DNA of 64,000 nucleotides from contig NC_045138.2 of assembly GCF_008831285.2 (NCBI RefSeq), positions 20,121,934 through 20,185,933 on the forward strand, in the 5' to 3' direction. Below are positions 1,070-51,549 of this stretch, one piece after another. Under the pieces are notes generated by a model. The model saw only the letters and a program-made list of their open reading frames with translations. It was not told the DNA's origin and made no database searches. The position numbers and the translations under genes were made by a program. The stretch's first letter is position 1; the number at the start of each line of letters is the position of its first letter. The DNA is from Nymphaea colorata. Lineage: Eukaryota; Streptophyta; Magnoliopsida; Nymphaeales; Nymphaeaceae.

Positions 1070-1353
1070 TAAGCCAGGGCATCAGACCGGCCCCGACATC
1101 CACAACCCGGGCTTGAGCCCGACCCTACTCGGACAACTTGAGCTCGGCCTAATTAAATTTAAAAATCACAATTAATCATAATAAAATATTAGAAATAGAT
1201 ATATAAATTAATAAAAAAATTTAAAAACTCATTATTGAGATCACCCTGGCTTATCGATCTGGCCTGGGTTCATTTTTTCCGGGCCCGTGCCCAGCCTTGA
1301 GTCGGGCCAAGTACTGGATACCCGGCAGTGACCCAACTCGGTGCCCAAACTTA
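1070..1353. mobile_element. hAT-type MITE, 284 bp, with 8-bp target duplication
   Basis: The left end reads TAAGCCAGGGCATCAGACCG and the right end, reverse-complemented, reads TAAGTTTGGGCACCGAG, so the ends form imperfect terminal inverted repeats. The flanking 8-mers caaaaaat (1,062-1,069) and ctaaaaat (1,354-1,361) match at 7 of 8 bases, as expected for a hAT target-site duplication. The ends also match those of the larger element at 36,061-37,028 (TAGGCCTGGGCATCGGGCC), so both probably belong to one non-autonomous family. The interior is GC-rich at both ends and AT-rich in the middle, and has no coding capacity. Confidence 0.7.
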
Positions 1354-14208: not shown

Positions 14209-14281
14209 GCGCCTGTAGCTCAGTGGATAGAGCGTCTGTTTCCTAAGCAGAAAGTCGTAGGTTCGACCCCTACCTGGCGCG
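14209..14281 (+). tRNA. tRNA-Arg (anticodon CCT)
   Basis: A 73-nt cloverleaf without intron. The acceptor stem starts GCGCCTG and closes with CTGGCGC plus discriminator G. The A box is TAGCTCAGTGG and the B box GGTTCGACC. The anticodon loop TTCCTAA gives anticodon CCT, decoding AGG. A CAA start motif (14,204-14,206) lies just upstream, as is usual for plant tRNA genes, and a T7 run at 14,289-14,295 is a good Pol III terminator. It lies 168 bp from the divergent SKA3-like start codon. Confidence 0.96.
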
Positions 14282-17756: not shown

Positions 17757-33942
<16,186 letters not shown>

Positions 33943-34360
33943 TGATGGATGGAGAGGGAAGGAGATAGCAACTATGGGAAGAAGGAAGCGAAGAATGCTA
34001 GGCAGCAGGGGAAAGATTCGCGGGGAGGGTTTGGGAGGGCGCAAAGGGTCCTCAGGTGGCGGGAAATAGGATAACGAGTGCGGTAGAAGGGAGGCGCAGT
34101 CGAAGCACGCAAATCTCGCGCTAGGTAAACTATCGGCGATAAAATCAATGCACAAATAACGGAAAAGTTTTATTTTAATAACCTTTTGCATGGAACTTGG
34201 AAGACGCTGCAAAAATCATTCCCAACTAGTTGGACAATTTACTTAAAAAATTGTTGATAAATATTTTAAATTAATTTACTAAATTGGAACAACGAAGTGA
34301 AAATACCTACCATATAAACTTCAATTTTTAAATCAAATGTAAAATTTAGGTAACAGTATC

Positions 34361-34870
34361 TTGATTGGAGACCTCTTTCTATCTGTTTTGAAAGTGTGGA
34401 TATTGGAAAGAACATGCTTATGCTAATATTTGTTAATTTATTAGTATTTAAAATGGATTAATTTTAGGAACATTCATCGATGGATTCATGAATTTGTCTC
34501 TTTTTATAATCAAATTTATGGAACAGTTACTAAGGGAATGCTGGAAATATGAATATTAAACGTAAAAATTAAGTGACAATATCATTGTTTGGATACCTCT
34601 TTCTATCTCTTTTTGTAAGTGCGATATTGGAGATAACATGCTTATGTATCACTAACATTTATTAACTTATTAGTATTTAAAATATTGGATTCATTTTTGT
34701 ATTTTATGAAAATTTGTGTTTTCTAATACGTTATTTGATAGCCATAATATTTACATATTTCTCCATTAATTTTACCATAAAAATAAATTCATTTCATCGA
34801 CAGATCCATGAATCTGTCTATTTTTGTAATCAAATTTATGGGACCGTTATTAAGGGAATGTTTGGAATTC
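34361..34870. repeat. imperfect direct duplication
   Basis: The segment around 34,361 (gacctctttctatctgtttt) recurs near 34,591. The segment at about 34,487-34,550 (tcatgaatttgtctcttttt, then tcaaatttatgga) recurs near 34,807-34,865. Spacing is about 230 bp for the first pair and 320 bp for the second, so the second copy carries an insertion of roughly 90 bp. Confidence 0.7.
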
Positions 34871-35453
34871 TGAAACATTGTATTAGTTTTTTCATGGATA
34901 TATTCGAGACTATAATAAATTTAATGTAACGATGGATTCATATAACACTAACAAATGCCTCTTAAACTTATGGGTTATGCGACATTAGATGTAATATTCG
35001 ATATTTTTCTGAGAAATGAAATTGACGAAGCACTGACATATATGATCACGAAACATGGATGCGAAATATGAAATTTAGTAATTATGCATGTAAGAAAATG
35101 CACATGAATAGGTCTGATGCACTTGATCGTAGGTCGACTAATTGAGAAAAATGAAGGAGAATATATAAAAGGAATTTATCCTTTTGAAATATTGGTTACA
35201 AGAAAATTAAATCAATTTGTTACACGGATAAAATAAGGAGCTGTTTGAAGCAAATTCACGGTTTAAACTTTAAAATAGACGAAGGAATGCTTGTTAGAAT
35301 TTTCAATCATTTCAAGCTATCTTAATATTTTTCATGGACTGTAGAAAAAGAATGATAAGCTAGATGGTTTTGCTGATAAATTTTGACCAACAATTTGGAC
35401 TAATCAAACCGGCCTTACCCACTGTGATATATTGTATGATGCCGGTAAAAGTC

Positions 35454-35489: not shown

Positions 35490-36060
35490 ACATTGGTATG
35501 CAGCATGGTTTAGATTTGCGGGCTAATTTTTTGAAGCTTGTTTAGCTCGCATTGTGTAGCTGGCATGGTGTAACTCGCATGGTGTCGTCGAAGGTTTTAT
35601 AAGTCTTCAGCCAGCCTTAACTCATTCTTAATGTAGCAGAAGCATTCATCAATATTTTAGAATCATGATTCATCAATATTTTGGAATCATGGACTAGACG
35701 ATGAGTGTTAGGCACTTGGTGCACCATCATCCAGGATTATCCCACAGTAAACCATCAATAAGGTGTGCCCACGAGGCCTTGTCACTGTCATTCCTCTAAA
35801 TACCTAACTACTTCCATGTGAAATCTAAGTGAGGATAGACTTCCCTCAGTAGAAAGTCCTCAGCTGAAACCAATTGTCGACTATATGTCATTAAGTAAGG
35901 TGGCCGACCATCGCCCTACTCGACGATGATCTCTTACTTGCTCACCCTCGTGTAACTCTACGAAGTTATGGACGTAGCATGCGTGTTCACTTGGAGAATT
36001 GCCTCTAACTCACACGCACCCTCATGCGCATCCAAACGCTACGCATGGGGAACCCACCGA

Positions 36061-37028
36061 TAGGCCTGGGCATCGGGCCGGCCCGACCCGTTTAGTCAAC
36101 ATCGTTAAGGGCCCGAATTTGAATCGGCTCGGTCCGCTACCCGGCCCAACTATTATAGGGCCGGGCCTGGTCAACCACGTCCGAAGCTCGACCCGGCCCG
36201 TTTGTTAACTACCGGGCTGGGCCAGGCAGGGTCTATCCCAAGAAGACGCCGGTGGCAAGGTCTATCTGAAGAAGACGCCGATCGAACTTCCGGATGTCAT
36301 GGCGATCCCGTGCGCTGCTCACTCCTGCGTTCTTGACCATGATGTCGAGGAGGCCAAAGTGGGTAAGGGCGAGGTCGACAGTGGGAGTAGAGGAAGCTGT
36401 GGATGGTGGAAGAGCTCTGTGGTGGTCTGCCCAATCCCTCTCGCAGTCTCGCTTCTTCCGTCATGATTGCCACTTTCCCTTCCAAACTACAAACGCATCA
36501 TCCCCAGGACCCCAACATCATCAACTGTACAATGTAGAGAGTGATGCTGCGATGGTGAGTCTATCAACAACAAAGAAATGATTTGTAATGAATCGTCATT
36601 TTGAAGCAGTGGATGGCATTTGGGGCTGATATTACCTGCTGCGATGGGAGGTGAAGAGTGCCCCCAACCTTGTTAGTCCAGTGCCGGTGGTGGACTGGAG
36701 GTCGACGGTGCCGGTGGCAGACCGACGGTGTGACGACGGTGGCGGCGCCATGGCCTACCCAACAAACATCAAAACCCTAAATCCATACCCAACACAGAGC
36801 AAAACCCTAAATCCCTAAATGCATTTTCTTAAAATTTTAAATGATGAATCCACTATCGACCTAATGGGCCTAGCGGGTCCCAACGGCCCGTAAGCTTAAC
36901 TCCGACCCGCCCGTTATGATGTCGGGCCGGGCACAGCGGGCTGTAACCCGATAAAGTAAAACAAGTACCCAAACCCGGGCCTGAACGACCGACTACCCGG
37001 CGGCGGCCCGGCCCGGTGCCCAAGCCTA
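36061..37028. mobile_element. non-autonomous hAT element, 968 bp, carrying a captured gene fragment
   Basis: The left end TAGGCCTGGGCATCGGGCC and the reverse-complemented right end TAGGCTTGGGCACCGGGCC are terminal inverted repeats with 2 mismatches in 19. The 8-mer cccaccga is repeated exactly on both sides (36,053-36,060 and 37,029-37,036), a hAT-type target duplication. The subterminal regions are rich in GGCCCG blocks. The interior has no transposase; it contains a piece of a short-chain dehydrogenase gene on the minus strand, described separately. The perfect duplication and close ends suggest a fairly recent insertion. Confidence 0.88.
36225..36486 (-). pseudogene. captured short-chain dehydrogenase/reductase (SDR) fragment
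   Basis: The minus strand first reads LEGKVAIMT (from 36,485), the usual start of plant SDRs just before the Rossmann loop, preceded by an acceptor-like TTTGTAG. After a frameshift it reads TARGIGQTTTELF, matching the cofactor loop and helix (TGxARGIGxATxxLF). Roughly 40 residues are then missing, and the same shifted frame continues with VDLALTHFGLLDIMVKNAGV (SDR pattern LDIMVNNAGV). It ends with FDRRLLQIDLATGVFLG (pattern VNxxGVFLG) followed by a stop. Frameshift, deletion and stop show it is not functional. It resembles the xanthoxin/secoisolariciresinol-type plant SDRs, but the donor gene is not in the window. Confidence 0.82.
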
Positions 37029-37036
37029 CCCACCGA

Positions 37037-38555
37037 TTTTCAAACGACGAACTTGCACGTTTCAAAGAAACTGATGACCATGATGCACTTGTATGTTTTG
37101 TCTTTGCATCACCGCGCTGCATATTCTAAATTAATAAAACTAGTGTCATTTTTTGAAACTGTGCATAAATTGTGGGCTCAAAAATAAGAAATTTCCAAAT
37201 TTTTAACCAGTTGGACCTGTTCTTCCGGTGGTTCTGCCTCTGTCTCGTACATTGTTTGTTAATTTAACAAGGACAAGAATCTTTTTCACCAGTTTATAAT
37301 TAGTAAAAAAAAAAAACCGTATTTAATATCAATAGTTTAGGGTGCAGTGCAGTTACATTCTTTAATTAAAATAAGCTTAACATTTGACCAAGTGGACAAT
37401 AGAATAACGATACTCCACGATGCATATACTAAATAAAGTGCATGGATTCCAGGCAATCCATGCTACTGTCCTTGGAACGGGGATAACGGCGGAGTTAGAT
37501 TTTTTGTTTTAAGGGCTGTGACTATATAATTTCTAAATTGTTTGTACAATAATTTTGTAGATTTTACACAGTATTTTGTTTTTATTTTTTTTCAATCGTG
37601 AGAGGGCGGGGAGGGGTGAGGCCATGGCCCATGCCAACTCTCCTGGCGAGGTCTCTATGAGCTCTTCTTGGCAGTGGCGTAGTCACATTGTGACTGGTAT
37701 AGACCGTGCTTATACAAGTCACTTAAAAGTTTTTTTATTTTTAAATGAAAATTTTAAATATTTATTTTTTTATATATATAAGTGTTTCATTATATTTGAG
37801 TATTTTTAAAAAAGTGCCCTTTCAAGTGAATTTTTCTGGTTGTGTTTAAGCTGCAGGTCATGGATGTACCTTTCACACTTTTTTGAGTATTTTTAAAAAA
37901 GTGCCCTTTCAATTGAATTTTTCTGGTTGTGTTTAAGCTGCAGGTCATTGATGTACCTTTCACACTTTTCCTATTCCTAGTTTAGTTGCATAAATTTTAG
38001 TTGTCTCCTTCAGCTAAAAAGAGAGAGAAAAAAAAAAAAAGCATCCAACGTCAACAACAAATAAGTGTCCATCTTTTCAGATACATTAAAGAGGCGCCAT
38101 ATATTGCTTCTGAATTGACCAGCAAGTCACTTATCAGCTTTTATATTTCTTAGGTGAAAATAAATATGTCAGTCAATGACGGAGCAAAAAAATTTTGATA
38201 ACTTAATCACAATGCAAATGCAAGATTATTATTATCCTTCACACCCGTGGAGAAAGAAGTGTGTAATGATGAGAATGCATTGGTCAATTAATCAAAAAAT
38301 GAAAAGTTAAAAACTTCAAAAAAATATTTAAAAAAAAAATCTCAAAATGGCCTACCTCCTCTCCTTTTTTTTAATGGTGCATATCTGTTCGCATGTGGAC
38401 AACTGTAGCCATGCCACCTCCCTGGACACCAAACGATTTTGGTCAAATATGTTGATTATATGTATTTGGGAACGTGTTTGACCACGTTAACCCCAAGTCA
38501 AGTCATTTATAATAATATCGACCTCTAAAATGGTCACCATACACTAAGGTTTTGA
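37037..38555. other. intergenic upstream of the first PLAC8 gene
   Basis: AT-rich DNA with a repeat fragment near 37,480-37,700 and the 87-bp tandem duplication at 37,798-37,971. The part from about 38,390 onward is similar to the region upstream of the second PLAC8 gene (from about 47,915), so it belongs to the duplicated unit. Confidence 0.55.
37798..37971. repeat. 87-bp tandem duplication, two copies
   Basis: The unit beginning gagtatttttaaaaaagtgc at 37,798 is repeated at 37,885 with only a few base differences, for example aagtg against aattg and catgg against cattg. Confidence 0.95.
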
Positions 38556-38573: not shown

Positions 38574-38635
38574 GCATTTTCATATGAGAAAATATTAATG
38601 ACCGGAGCCTGAAATTGGCCGGCCGGAAAACTGAA

Positions 38636-41600
38636 ATGGGTCGCCTGCAAGGTGCTCAAAATCCGGAAGCCCTTCAACACCCAGAGGATCAACATCCTCA
38701 ACCCCCTCAGCACCGCCCCGAAGCTCCTTTTGCCCATCAGAACCCACCTTCAAATGCGCCGCCGGCCGACTGCCCGCCGCAGAGCTCAGAGAAAGCTACC
38801 CAGTTCTCCTACCATCCGCCTGGAGCTCCTGCTGTAGCTTACCCACCACAGTCACCGGCTCAGCGTCAGGCCGTCCCTTTCCCGCCAACTGCTCCGCCCT
38901 GTAGCCCTTCAAATGTGCCGCCGGCGAACTACCCGCCGCAAACTCCAGAAAGACTTAACCACTTCTCCTCCCAGCCGCCTGGAGTTGCAGTAGCTTACCA
39001 ACCACAATCACCCGTCCCTTTCCCGTCAAACGCTCGGCCTTATGATTTCCACCAGGCTGCTGCTTTCAAGCCTCAGCCCGTGAACTGCCCGCCGGTAGAT
39101 GGGCCGCCTTACCCTCAACCGCAGTACCGTGCGGCAAACCCTCAACAGCAGTACCCTTCGGCAACTTTCAGTAGCGGTGCCCCCTGGACGACTGGATTAT
39201 TTGATTGCATGGATGATCCAGCCAATGGTATGTATTTCCACCACAAAAAAGCATGGAATCGACGACTTGCGGATTGGCGGCCGTCGTTCAAAGTCGATTT
39301 TTACTGAGTCTATTATTACTGATGTTCATACGTGAAACGAGAGTGTCGATGAATATGGAGTTTCACTGACATTCTAAAAAAATGAATTGATGAACTTACG
39401 CCTTCATCAGCGCGTCCGGACTGCATGTCGGAAAGTTGATTTGTACGCCGGAATCCTTCCGACATACCATATATTAGTTGAGGATGCAATCTAAGTCGCT
39501 TAGCTCATGATTTATGTCTTCTCGTTGATCTAAAAGATAAAAATATTATTCGAGCAACCCATATATGGTTTCCGTTATGCACTGGATTGACCTTTATGTG
39601 CAAAAAAACGTATTCAAATGATTTCTCATCTATTAAATTTTGAATCAAATGGTGGTTTTTAAGTGTTAGATAAAGTACATTGCATCGAATTTGTCTATGG
39701 GCAATGGGATGCACGCGATTATATCAGTATTTATTAATGCATTGAAATTAAACATGTTTAAACGAGAGTTAATGTTAACAGCACCTGCAACTGTAAACAA
39801 ATACTCACATGTACTTAGTAGATCGAGGCTGTCGACGTAAAGGGATGGAGTTGCGTTCATTTTTAGAAGATCAACTCTAGCAAACCAAAAGGCAGCCGTC
39901 AACCAGAAGTTACCTTATATGTATCAATTTCTAGCGGTCTATTCGTATTAATTATATAATTACACAGCACCCATTAACGCTCATTTCTAGTGCTATTCAT
40001 GGCCATATTTTTCACGATTATTTGCATTTTCACAACTCTTGGCTGAAAATTTTACCTCATAAGTTTTTATATTACAGTATTTCAATTAAAAGAACGCAAA
40101 ACAAACTTGGTTGCTCATGAAAATACATCAAATTTTAAGGGCTCAAAAAAAGTCGCGAAAGGTCGAAATAATATAGTTGATTCACTTTTTTTTATTATTA
40201 TTTTGAATCTCGGACATACTTGTGTCCATGTGTGTGTGCAAAGAAACAAGCGACAAACCAACAAATCCCTTCGTTTTGAACACTTTATCACTCACCTTAT
40301 TCACATTCTTCTTGATGAACATAACTTTTACATGCGAAACTTTTAAAATCTAGCAAGTTATTGTTTTTCAACTAAATTGACAATGAGATTAAAGTAAACT
40401 GTTTTAATCTTTTAGGCTCCCAAACGTCACCTTGCATGTTCTAGAGCATGACTTTTATTTGGGTTTATATGTCTTAAGTATGCAAATTGCTTCTACAAGA
40501 TTGTTTTCTCAACTCTTACAAATATCGTCAAGCTGTCAGGCCAATTGAAGAACATAATTTCTTTGGCAATAATATATATATATATATAGAAAAATTGAAT
40601 GGCGAAACTGATTTGTAAGATTCGTACATTCATCTAATCTAGGACATTTGATCCATCCTTATGAATAGTTACTTAAGATAAAAACAAAAACAAAAAGGTG
40701 ATGGACATTTTCATAATTTAGTATTTGACACATTTTTTTTCTTTCATCCATCTACTTGCTTCAGATGAATGACCCTCCTAAGATGGTTATGTGATATATA
40801 TATATATATATATATATATAATGAATGAATAGTAACTCTGACGATCCAAAGTCACCAAGGGCGCTCTTGAAGACCATTTGATGACGAAAAATGAAAAAAA
40901 ATATTTAACTAATATCACATGATAAAAATTCCTATCACATTTTCCTCTTTAACTTTTAATCGTTCATTTCATATTGTTTCTGTTGTTTCTTGTAATTGGG
41001 GCGGCGTATGAGATGGGGAAATTATTGAATGATATGGTGTTTTTTATTTTATCTTTTATATGTTTTGGCTGCAGCCCTGATTACAGCTTTCCTTCCTTGC
41101 GTGACATTCGGACAAGTTTCTGAGATACTGGACAACGGCAACCGTATATATCTTCCCTTCCCTATTTCAAAGCCTTAACATTCATCCATCGGCTTCATTG
41201 AGGACAACTAAACGTTTCATTTTGGTGAAATTAATTGGCTGTGCAGCATGCCTCACCGGCGGGCTCATGTATGGCGTACTAGCCTGGTTAGGAGTGCCCT
41301 GCATCTTGTCATGCACTTACAGAACGAAGCTGCGAGCCAAGTACAACCTGCTGGAGTCCCCTGCTCCCGATCTCATTACTCACTTCCTGTGCGAGCCCTG
41401 CGCGCTCTGCCAAGAGTACAGGGAGCTCAAGAACAGAGGCCTGCACCCAGGGATTGGTAAGCCTGCACTTTATAAGTGTTATTTGGTTTTATTTTGGAGG
41501 CACAATTGATAAGGTCAATAGCTGGTAGGTAGGAGTGAACACCAGCCGAGTTGAGTATGAGTTTAGTCAGCTCAAGCTTGGCTCGACTAATGAAACCTCA

Positions 41601-43333: not shown

Positions 43334-46300
43334 GCTGCAAGAATTACGACTCCGAGTTTAATTCGCGACAAGTTAATTACTTTGGTTTTTGATCAATTCT
43401 TCTCAGAGTGTTTCCAAGTCAGTTGATTTAAGCCATGATCTGTAATTGTTTTCTTTATACGGTGTGAAGATCCATCTCGTGATGCCAGTTTGATCACATA
43501 AATAATAAATCGTTCTCATTTGTGATTCTTCTTGATGATGTCTAGTGGAGCCAGAAAAATTGGTAGAAGGGTACTTGTTTAAAAATATTCAAATCTCGTG
43601 GGTCACTTTTATATATATATATATATATATATATAATGGCCCATTGAAGATGCCTTTCGATCTTATGCTGAAATTAAATTTGTATGAAGGCCATGGATTC
43701 ATTGCTTCAAAAGGCATAACATAGTTAGTTGGGTTGGCGAGTTGGTGAAAGTCTGGTTGTCAGTTTAATTATCATGGACGCTACAGGGGAAGGGGGGGGT
43801 CTCGCTCTTCACGCGTGAATGAAAAAAGCTATTACAAAAGTTCGTTTCTATAAAAATGAGAGAAAAGAAAAAAAATTATCAAATTATATATATAAATGAA
43901 AAGAAATGAAATAATGCAAATTTATTTACAATAATGCCCTTAATATCTCCTATTTTGATTATACATATTGATAACAATTATTTCCTCTATTTATTTCCAA
44001 CTTTTTTGGGTGTCTACCAATGTGGTAGTTGAACATTCAATTAGTCACGTTAATCCCTTGTTCTGTTTTTGGTTCCAACAGGTAGTTGGATTTCTTTTCT
44101 TCATGTGTCATAGTGATAAATACGATAAACGAGTTTTAAACAGAGAGGCTTTTCTTAGGTGTTTTTTGGCAAAGTAATTTTTGGCAAAATCCTAAAAATT
44201 AGGAAAATTTAAAATAAATTAAGACTTACAAGATAACTTAAAAAATAAGTTGAGAAAGTCAGAAATGTCAACAGATCAGATTTGAATCACATATACACTT
44301 AACTGTATCCCTTTTTTTGTATTTACATATGTGGGTTCAAATTCTAATGGATGTGAGCAAAGAAGAGTCATATCCAATCCGATTTTTACAACATATTCGA
44401 ATCCAAATATGAAATCTGATTTCATAATTCAAATCTCGATTTGAATATGATTTTTAAATTCATATCCGAATATGAATTCAAAATCTGATTTCATGATGCC
44501 AATCTTATTTTTACATTCATATTCGAATATGAGCCTGAATTTTGAACCGAATTTTTTTTTTGCCAATTTTCAAAATGTAAGAGCTTTAGATACGAGATAC
44601 TTAGTTAAAAGTAAATCCGATCTGGATCTGAATCCAATCATAGATTCATGCATATTTAAACCTGAATCTAATCAATGTCATTTCATAAGTCCCAATCAGT
44701 TTTGATTTTGAATTTCGATATTTTTTTTTTTTCCATATCTTCATTCTTGTTGGGTGATGTGCACGCAACTTAATCTCCCTGAAGTTAATTAAAGCCACAT
44801 GATGACAGTGAAGTACAAAATATAATGACCAACCATTTAATTATAAGAAACTAAATTATGCACTAGAGGCACTCATATGTAAAAAACTAAAAGTTAAAGT
44901 TAATGAAGTTTTTATCTCTAAGTAGTTTATTTTTTTCCAGCAATAATGCAGCACCGCTACTGCAGCTGAATCGGTCACAACTTTTTTCATGTGTTATTTC
45001 GCAGACATGATGAGTCACCGGCAACCAAATTTAGATTTGACTCAATCAAGTAGAAATGTATAAAAAAGAAATTATATGTGTAACATATAATGTAAGCAAA
45101 TATTGAGATTGATTGATTGCTTGAGATATTTTTCTTGTATGAGATAATAATATTGGAACTGTTGCATATACATATTTGCAAAAACTTTACGTCCAGTGAA
45201 TAAACCGGTGTGTTAATAAATTGGATTTGGATCAATTACAAACGAATATGAAAATAATTAACATCAAATTAAAAAAATAACATCTTGTTCTGAGTAAAGA
45301 AATGACATCCGATCATATTTAAATTTAGATCGATTTCAGTTTTAAATAAATATCGTGCATCAAATGTCCATACATTTTGAACGTCAATTCTTGATAATAT
45401 TACAGTGCTGCACACATTTGGTTTAAAAATTGGATTTTTTTTTGTCATTCGAATGAGAATTTTGAAAAATTGGATATGGGTCGGATCTATACTGTGAATT
45501 TGAGTTCAAATCCAGGTACAACGTAGACTTTTCTTCATCATATTTTAATCTTTCTTCAAATCCAAATATGTGAACATTTGAAAAAACATATATGGCCAAG
45601 AGTATATTCTATCCCAATCTTAACTATTGACATCTACATCAATAACTTAAATAAGTGTTTTGTAACTTCTTTTTCATGCCTTGATACCACCTCATTGACT
45701 TGTTTAACTTAACCAATAAAATTATCAACAATCTAATATCCATAGGTCATGTGATGTCGACACATGAGATCTGCCATTTGAAAGTATAACCTATGTTGGG
45801 GCGGAGCCAAAAAAATTTCATAAGGGGAGCCAAATTATAGGAACAAAATCTTGACAGGGCCAAAATATTAATTTTTAAAATTTTTATATACGATAAATAA
45901 TTAAAAAAAATTATATGCCTTCTATTGGCTCACCAAGTGTTAGAATCTTCAATGCATTATTGTTTTAGAACTCCAACACGCTAGTGCATTGCCTCGTAAA
46001 CTTTTCTCTTCAAGAAAAATGAAGCTTTAAAAAAATACTTACTTTTCGTGGAAGCCATCGAACAAGCGAGCGATTTTTTTAAATCTATCATAAGATTATA
46101 ATCTAGTAATATAAAGTAACATTGAATAGAGCAGCACCTAACGTTTTCTACCTTTTCGAATTAACGAATATTTTCGTTTAACAGATGAAAATAGCTTCTT
46201 TTGAAAGCATGCATAAAATACAGAGTCCAAAATGAAAATTTTCTAATATTTTAACTAGTTGGACCCGGTCTCTCGGTGCTCCTGCCTCTGTCATACATTC

Positions 46301-47419
46301 TTTGTTAACAACAGGATGGGAACACCCATCAATACTCATGCCATTGAACAAAATGCAACATTGATGGTTTAATTAATTTTTTTAAATGTAGTTTCAGAAA
46401 AAATGTTTAAAAAATGTTCAGCTAGCTAAGAGCAGCTAGGAAAGTGAGTTTCATGTCATGTCATTAATATGGAAACACATATTTGGATGAGCAAGTTGTT
46501 CATCCCACCATCCGAAACGATGCTCGAAGGCCCTCCCATTCTCTCTGCTTTCGGGTTTTGAGTTGCGTTGGTGTCAACGATAGCAACGGTACACCCTTCA
46601 ACTTGAATGTTGTGTCGTAATATCTTAAGACACATGAACATAATACCAACGGGAGTCAAACTAAAGACCTACCTTTATATAGACCCCTAACCCGATTAGT
46701 TACACTATGCCCCTTGAAACAACACCATTATCTATAAAGGTATGTTTGGTTCACTATTGCTCTTAGATTTACGATTATCTAAGATCTTAAATTCATGAAT
46801 TTAAGTTCACACCATTCATCCCCTCAAATCCACAGTTTCTTATATGCAATGTGGATTTAAGATTTAAGGTTACCGAGATCGATGTTCCAAAACAGACCTT
46901 CTAATGCAACCTTGAATTTAAGATCTAAGCTATCAAACACAATTTGAAGAATTTTTTTTTTAGGTTCCACTTTAACTTTTGTAGGACTTTCTTTTTAAGC
47001 AATAGGGATACTTTGGTCATTTTGAGCCCATATGCAAGGTCCCTTAACTAAATGCACCTCCATCCATTAAACGCGTTGACGTAGTACTTTTGGTTGGCCA
47101 ATCTATTTTTCCTTTAATTCATACCGGGTCAAAATATTCTTTTTTTAATTTAAGTATTAAATTTTAGAAATCTGAAGAAGGCCACAGCCCATAGCCGCAT
47201 CTCCTTGGGTCCGCTCGACATTATCAACAGCCAAAAGGGTCAACGAAAACGGCCTCCTCGTCCATGGTTTCAGGCTTTCAGCCTCCAATTTGGCAATTTC
47301 TCTCGAACCGCGTTGTGTGAAACGCACGGATCTGCACCCAAGCCGTTTAGATTGGAGGGTATTTTAGTAATTTAAAATAAACAAATGAACATTTTCAATA
47401 TTTCACCTATTCTGTTTCA
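43334..47419. other. intergenic between the PLAC8 copies
   Basis: No gene seen. It holds a TA tract at about 43,609-43,635, dispersed-repeat fragments at about 43,545 and 45,797-45,930, and stretches rich in 'aaatccgaatatg' words (44,340-44,700 and 45,430-45,560) that recur in intron 3 of copy B. The segment 46,737-46,942 has possible MITE ends (GGTATGTTTGGTTCACT against ATTGTGTTTGATAGCT). The open frame on the minus strand at 46,456-46,659 has no recognisable domain. Confidence 0.5.
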
Positions 47420-47798: not shown

Positions 47799-48076
47799 TT
47801 TGGAACCAGCGACGAATCTTCTTGCGTAATGCCAAGCTCGCCTGAGAAGGGAACACCATCATCACGACAAATAAACTATGGTCAGGACTCCCTATCAAAC
47901 GTTTCACATCTCGTATAGGACAACCGCAGCCACCTCTCCATACCGAACATTTTGACCTCAAATATGTTCATATATCAGGCTACGGGCTTGATTATCTTGT
48001 TCTCAAGTCAAGTCAACTACAATAATGTCAACCAGATGGAATTATCACTTTACAGTACACTAAGCCTTCGAGTCTT

Positions 48077-48083
48077 TATATAC
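48077..48083 (+). promoter_or_regulatory. TATA box of PLAC8 copy B
   Basis: TATATAC lies 67 bp before the ATG at 48,150, in a region similar to the upstream of copy A. In-frame ATGs at 47,952 and 48,084 lie upstream of or immediately next to this box, so they are unlikely to be in the mRNA. Confidence 0.6.
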
Positions 48084-48149
48084 ATGTTGCATTTTCTTAT
48101 AAAAGATATACGTGACCGGAGCCTCACATTCGCCGGCCGGAAAATTGAA

Positions 48150-51549
<3,400 letters not shown>

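Follow-up and report, generated by a model that had tools for sequence, protein, structure and literature searches.

A likely hAT-type transposon enclosing the broken 5′ part of a short-chain dehydrogenase gene

The window (the whole stretch of 64,000 nt analysed here) was taken to be plant nuclear DNA, judged from its genes. Minus-strand pieces between 18,445 and 34,215 probably belong to a single valyl-tRNA synthetase gene, with a possible first exon at 33,745–34,215. Those at 23.2–23.5 kb are class I tRNA synthetase pieces that match the Pfam family tRNA-synt_1 above its cut-off, and at 18.4–18.8 kb, also on the minus strand, there is a match to the Val_tRNA-synt_C arm at 21.5 bits, below the cut-off of 25.9. 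Direct repeats of about 80–150 bp, 79–84% alike, lie beside the probable start of this gene (34,323–34,874), and a tRNA-Arg (CCT) was located with ARAGORN at 14,209–14,281, just upstream of a minus-strand reading frame. On the plus strand, Pfam recognised two PLAC8-family exons, at 41.1 and 49.6 kb. No match was obtained for six of the ten window frames compared with Pfam, including those at 38.6 and 47.9 kb, which, from a repeat pattern that they share, are probable 5′ exons of the PLAC8 genes. In both genes (38,588–41,509 and 47,919–49,875) the probable first exon is rich in proline and has internal repeats, and the pair seems to be part of a tandem duplication.

Between the synthetase group (minus strand) and the PLAC8 group (plus strand) sits a bounded, insertion-like unit that carries a broken piece of a short-chain dehydrogenase (SDR) gene. 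It is 968 bp long (36,061–37,028) and has a G+C content of 55.8%, against 36.2% for the window. Its inverted ends, TAGGCCTGGGCATCGGGCCGGCCCG and TAGGCTTGGGCACCGGGCCGGGCCG, match at 22 of 25 bases, the well-matched part being confined to these 25 bp, and CCCACCGA stands in identical copies directly outside them. Well-matched ends and an exact 8-bp target duplication were both features of the original prediction, and both were recovered. Alternatively, with the outermost T and A counted as target sequence, the direct repeat becomes 10 bp long, ACCCACCGAT. The window was scanned for exact 8-mer pairs lying 150–5000 bp apart, excluding 8-mers of one or two base types; four pairs reached 18 or more of 25 end matches, with the pair delimiting 36,061–37,028 at the top and the other three (19, 18 and 18 of 25) located in AT-rich microsatellites. 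Dinucleotide shuffling of the window was repeated 40 times: 39 shuffles held no such pair and one reached 18/25, and a chance origin of ends matching at 22/25 was rejected on this ground. A 21-base end pattern, allowing up to three mismatches, occurs within the window only at the two ends of the element, and one scan of viral contigs for this pattern gave 0 matches. The 12-base end with up to two mismatches has six matches in the window against 5.07 expected, no excess over chance. Beyond the right end, positions 37,134–37,262 are paralogous (73.6% identity) to 46,185–46,308, upstream of the second PLAC8 gene; this paralogue was considered as an empty site and rejected, since detectable homology begins about 100 bp from the insertion. 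Further to the right, but still before the first PLAC8 gene, there is an 87-bp tandem duplication, 98% alike, at 37,795–37,968. The coordinates of the element and its parts are collected in Table 1.

Table 1. Parts of the 968-bp element, its target-site duplication and its cargo-free relative, in window coordinates.
Feature	Position	Strand	Basis or detail
Left target-site duplication	36,053–36,060		CCCACCGA; exact 8-bp copy at other side
Left terminal inverted repeat	36,061–36,085	+	starts TAGGCCTGGGCA; 22/25 against right end
Left GC-rich terminal and subterminal region	36,061–36,224		motif count; 62.8% GC, 20 GC-hexamer motifs
Cargo, broken 5′ part of an SDR gene	36,225–36,845	-	621 bp; limits approximate
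29-bp tandem duplication, junction of cargo and left end	36,225–36,280		repeat comparison
Partial exon 2 of SDR gene	36,225–36,486	-	collinear tblastn pieces; 8-bp insertion, about 43 codons not recognisable, frame changes
Probable intron	36,487–36,635	-	149 nt, GT...AG, 42% GC; donor CAG/GTAATA, acceptor TTTGTAG
Probable exon 1	36,636–36,751	-	116 nt from ATG 36,751, 66% GC, reads MAPPPSSHRRSATGTVDLQSTTGTGLTRLGALFTSHRS; in-phase model, without homology support
30-bp tandem duplication, just upstream of captured ATG	36,756–36,815		repeat comparison; contains AAACCCTAAATCC, which we liken to a telo-box
Right GC-rich terminal and subterminal region	36,846–37,028		motif count; 62.8% GC, 18 GC-hexamer motifs
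Right terminal inverted repeat	37,004–37,028	-	starts TAGGCTTGGGCA; 22/25 against left end
Right target-site duplication	37,029–37,036		CCCACCGA; exact 8-bp copy at other side
Cargo-free relative	1,070–1,353	+	end matching to element; 284 bp, ends TAAGCC...AACTTA, AT-rich core

The two end regions differ sharply from what they enclose. GC-hexamer motifs number 20 in the left 164 bp and 18 in the right region, with none in the 621-bp cargo and none in either 500-bp flank, so that the element appears to consist of its own ends around a foreign interior; motif repeats in subterminal position are also a mark of the hAT superfamily. Only 30 such motifs occur in the window outside the element, eight of them in the small relative described below. 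The left region can be aligned loosely with the inverted right region along its length, beyond the 25 bp of the inverted repeats (an alignment made without a shuffle control). The inner limits of both regions, and with them the outer limits of the cargo, were placed by eye and are approximate.

With the element masked, the best matching end pair in the window delimits a 284-bp sequence near its left edge, which agrees with the ends of the element at 20 of 24 and 18 of 24 positions. The sum of 38/48 compares with maxima of 32/48 in 300 shuffles of the window and 30/48 in 1000 local shuffles. When this sequence was aligned over its full length with the joined end regions of the element, the score was 102.5, while the highest of 500 single-base shuffles gave 92.0. 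The relative is probably old, since its two ends agree with each other at no more than 13 of 25 positions. The sequences immediately flanking its T...A ends, CAAAAAAT and CTAAAAAT, are alike at seven of eight positions; they point to an 8-bp duplication around T...A ends, and weigh against reading the repeat of the main element as 10 bp. The presence of this relative within the same 64 kb allows the transposon's own ends to be told apart from the cargo.

The nature of the cargo was established with tblastn, using as queries five solved SDRs that were taken to be plant proteins (7o6p, 8r0d, 8r0c, 2bgk and 6zyz). Three blocks were found on the minus strand, in the correct order and in three different frames: LEGKVAIMT (36,485–36,459), ARGIGQTTTELF (36,444–36,409), which contains TARGIGQ, and VDLALTHFGLLDIMVKNAGV...GVFLG (36,379–36,236), which contains LDIMVKNAGV and TGVFLG. 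The top score, 33.9 bits with 46% identity over 52 columns, was against borneol dehydrogenase 7o6p. No dinucleotide shuffle of the element out of 1000 reached it, the maximum being 26.6, and all six hits obtained in the whole window up to E = 1 fall in the SDR fragment. Host gene sequence thus lies between the ends, as in Pack-hATs, and the earlier reading of a hAT element with part of a dehydrogenase gene inside, broken and on the minus strand, holds for each of its four motifs (LEGKVAI, TARGIGQ, LDIMVKNAGV and TGVFLG). A phmmer comparison of block 3 with solved structures listed 46 chains up to E = 1, with SDR-type enzymes on top and weak E-values (best 0.0034); the list includes five designed repeat proteins from E = 0.049 (5oos and 3noc, with 5le3, 5le6 and 5le4, which we take to be of this kind). 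Three peptides were compared with Pfam; two had no match, and the third matched SDR families with 14.7 and 11.2 bits, under the cut-offs of 26.6 and 27.

In their order, LEGKVAI, GIGxxxxxLF and LDIMVxNAGV...GVFLG follow the plant borneol and secoisolariciresinol dehydrogenases represented by the five queries. Unlike those enzymes, the cargo is interrupted by an 8-bp insertion and frame changes, includes a stretch of about 43 codons that are not recognisable, and is without the catalytic half. Between blocks 1 and 2, eight extra bases, CTGCGAGA, follow AAGCGAGA on the minus strand (window positions 36,439–36,454); the two octamers are alike at six of eight positions, and the extra one shifts the frame. 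This near-duplication could be due to slippage, or could be the old excision footprint of another transposon that makes 8-bp duplications. Between blocks 2 and 3, the unrecognisable codons (aligned residues 27 to 71) are replaced by 26 bp. A complete plant SDR gene (class SDR110C) is marked by the motifs TGxxxGIG, NNAG and catalytic YxxxK. In place of a cofactor-binding half joined to YxxxK, the cargo has TEE for TGG and KNAG for NNAG, and a stop directly after GVFLG, where the alignment to SDRs ends. The SDR piece is a fragment, not a gene, and being frameshifted and internally deleted it is very unlikely to be the source of an SDR enzyme.

Upstream of LEGKVAI, the minus strand offers a plausible gene start. 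An open frame beginning with ATG joins LEGKVAI in phase across a 149-nt intron; when donors of the types GTAA, GTAT, GTAG and GTGA, introns of 65 nt or more and exons of 60 nt or more were allowed, no other in-phase ATG exon was found. Shuffling the upstream stretch 2000 times produced an in-phase exon of 100 nt or more in 384 cases with any tested donor, and in three cases with AG/GTAA, by a criterion fixed after the model had been seen. Because this criterion was chosen post hoc, and because the N-terminus is without homology support, exon 1 and the intron are only called probable. With that proviso, the cargo probably holds an exon 1 with its ATG and a 149-nt intron, in phase with the SDR exon; as both were kept, genomic (unspliced) DNA was probably taken up. 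An acceptor-like site at the 5′ end of the fragment had already been put forward as a sign of genomic origin, and the case is strengthened now that this site forms the 3′ end of a plausible intron (36,635–36,487) preceded by an in-phase ATG exon. A tentative link to ABA2 comes from an ABA2-type query, for which 7o6p was the best hit. The rice ABA2 gene is split by a single intron into two exons, the second of which includes residue 110 (PMC5882781), a structure that agrees loosely with a short 5′ exon.

Several features bear on the class of the carrier. Its ends carry TAGG..TG on both sides, to be compared with the C/TAGGGATGAAA ends of maize Ac/Ds elements, which likewise make 8-bp target duplications (PMC3260210). 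Short terminal inverted repeats of this C/TAGG..TG type and 8-bp duplications are both marks of the hAT superfamily; the second is represented by the CCCACCGA pair (for which a 10-bp reading is possible) and by the 7/8 agreement at the relative. No transposase frame was noticed in a six-frame reading of the 968 bp. The element is a non-autonomous DNA transposon, and its assignment to hAT, made from its ends and the length of the repeat and not from a transposase, is likely.

The explanation that we consider very probable as a whole is that a hAT-type element captured the 5′ part of a nuclear SDR gene with an intron, and then inserted at this site with an 8-bp duplication. The carrier would have been a non-autonomous, Ac-like member of a family with GC-rich ends, which copied the 5′ part of the plant SDR gene, with its intron, between those ends; the target duplication would have arisen afterwards, on insertion here. 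Since no transposase frame was seen in the element, transposase was likely provided in trans by an autonomous element located elsewhere. Uptake may have occurred when the gap left by excision was repaired with errors and the template switched to the SDR gene. Gap repair of this faulty kind is mentioned as an uptake route in PMC3260210; it would explain why SDR sequence is lost internally, why two short tandem duplications are present and why inner transposon ends are missing at the borders of the cargo. At most, such a cargo could yield transcripts or small RNAs with a relation to the donor.

Uptake may also have followed another route, which we hold to be possible though distinctly less probable: two neighbouring elements of the family could have flanked an SDR gene and been mobilised together by their outer ends. 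This tandem-insertion model of Pack-TYPE elements was proposed for Pack-CACTA and also, with examples, for hAT elements (PMC8903248), and is reviewed in PMC13317346; a small relative of the right kind is indeed present in the window. Inner ends would be expected at the borders of the cargo, and none was found inside the element at up to three mismatches in 21 bases or two in 12, although deletion or further decay could explain this. If the donor were found, the junctions could help to decide between gap repair and tandem insertion.

A carrier from a different superfamily is improbable. Pack-MULEs have target duplications of 9–11 bp and usually long terminal inverted repeats. A Mutator-like element could have made the same capture, with a 10-bp duplication ACCCACCGAT and ends AGGCC...AGCCT, and this reading draws on a direct repeat that is in fact 10 bp long, on ends that stay symmetrical when shortened by one base, and on the loose inverted similarity past the 25 bp (which is without a control). 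Against it, the well-matched ends are limited to 25 bp and start TAGG..TG as in Ac/Ds (PMC3260210), and the relative matches at seven of eight positions outside T...A, while the two outer bases needed for a 10-bp reading mismatch. Slightly less probable still is a regulatory Pack-hAT, in which the captured 5′-UTR-like stretch, exon 1 and intron would be transcribed within the element; the product would be a chimeric transcript with a function, or antisense or small RNAs with a tuning effect on the donor dehydrogenase gene. A start codon, a probable intron and the 5′-UTR-like stretch are retained in the right order, as such a role would have it, but the frame is broken by the 8-bp insertion, the internal loss and stops. 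That the dehydrogenase likeness is a chance product of GC-rich sequence is scarcely credible: the Pfam score of 14.7 bits lies under the cut-off of 26.6 and only several short motifs are concerned, but the pieces are three, collinear and on one strand, the tblastn score is reached by none of the 1000 shuffles, and no hit in the window up to E = 1 falls elsewhere.

The hAT-type capture favoured here illustrates the uptake of host-gene DNA, probably with an intron, in a compact element with clear bounds; events of this kind have already been published. The original prediction had called gene capture less often described for hAT elements; this was still said in 2011 (PMC3260210), but grapevine Hatvine-6 elements with host exons and introns inside date from 2008 (PMC2528002), and Pack-hATs have since been catalogued in maize, in a 2022 description that surveyed rice too (PMC8903248). 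The element at 36,061–37,028 is a further member of this group. Among the titles listed as matching its end sequences, the sole transposon paper was the one on maize Ac/Ds. Neither a case of SDR capture by a hAT element (judged by title) nor a record of this particular element was found among the matches listed, from which its absence from the literature does not follow. The ends of rice nDart1-type elements presumably begin TAG, as here, and differ in the rest of the terminal sequence. These rice elements are also small, non-autonomous plant hATs; gene cargo is present here, and none is mentioned in the part of the source available (PMC12595863). With Hatvine-6 the element shares hAT ends that enclose host exon and intron sequence; unlike those elements, which have transposase coding sequence in common (PMC2528002), it has no transposase reading noticed in six frames of its 968 bp. 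Maize Pack-hATs similarly combine hAT ends, an 8-nt target duplication and captured coding DNA. They were called genome-wide and tied to genes (PMC8903248), unlike the present case, a single element without a donor. A parallel in kind is offered by the two Ds2 and nine Ds-l4 elements with gene fragments described from maize in 2011: Ds2-22 and Ds-l4 are non-autonomous hATs with 8-bp target duplications, TAGG..TG ends and captured exon-intron DNA (PMC3260210). In contrast to these, whose donors and positions are known, the element described here has another terminal sequence past TAGG..TG, and GC-rich subterminal regions. Ds2-22 captured two exons together with their intron, and a similar unspliced capture would have taken place here if the model of exon 1 and intron is right; in length, too, the 968 bp are comparable to the modal value of about 1 kb for Ds-l4 (PMC3260210).
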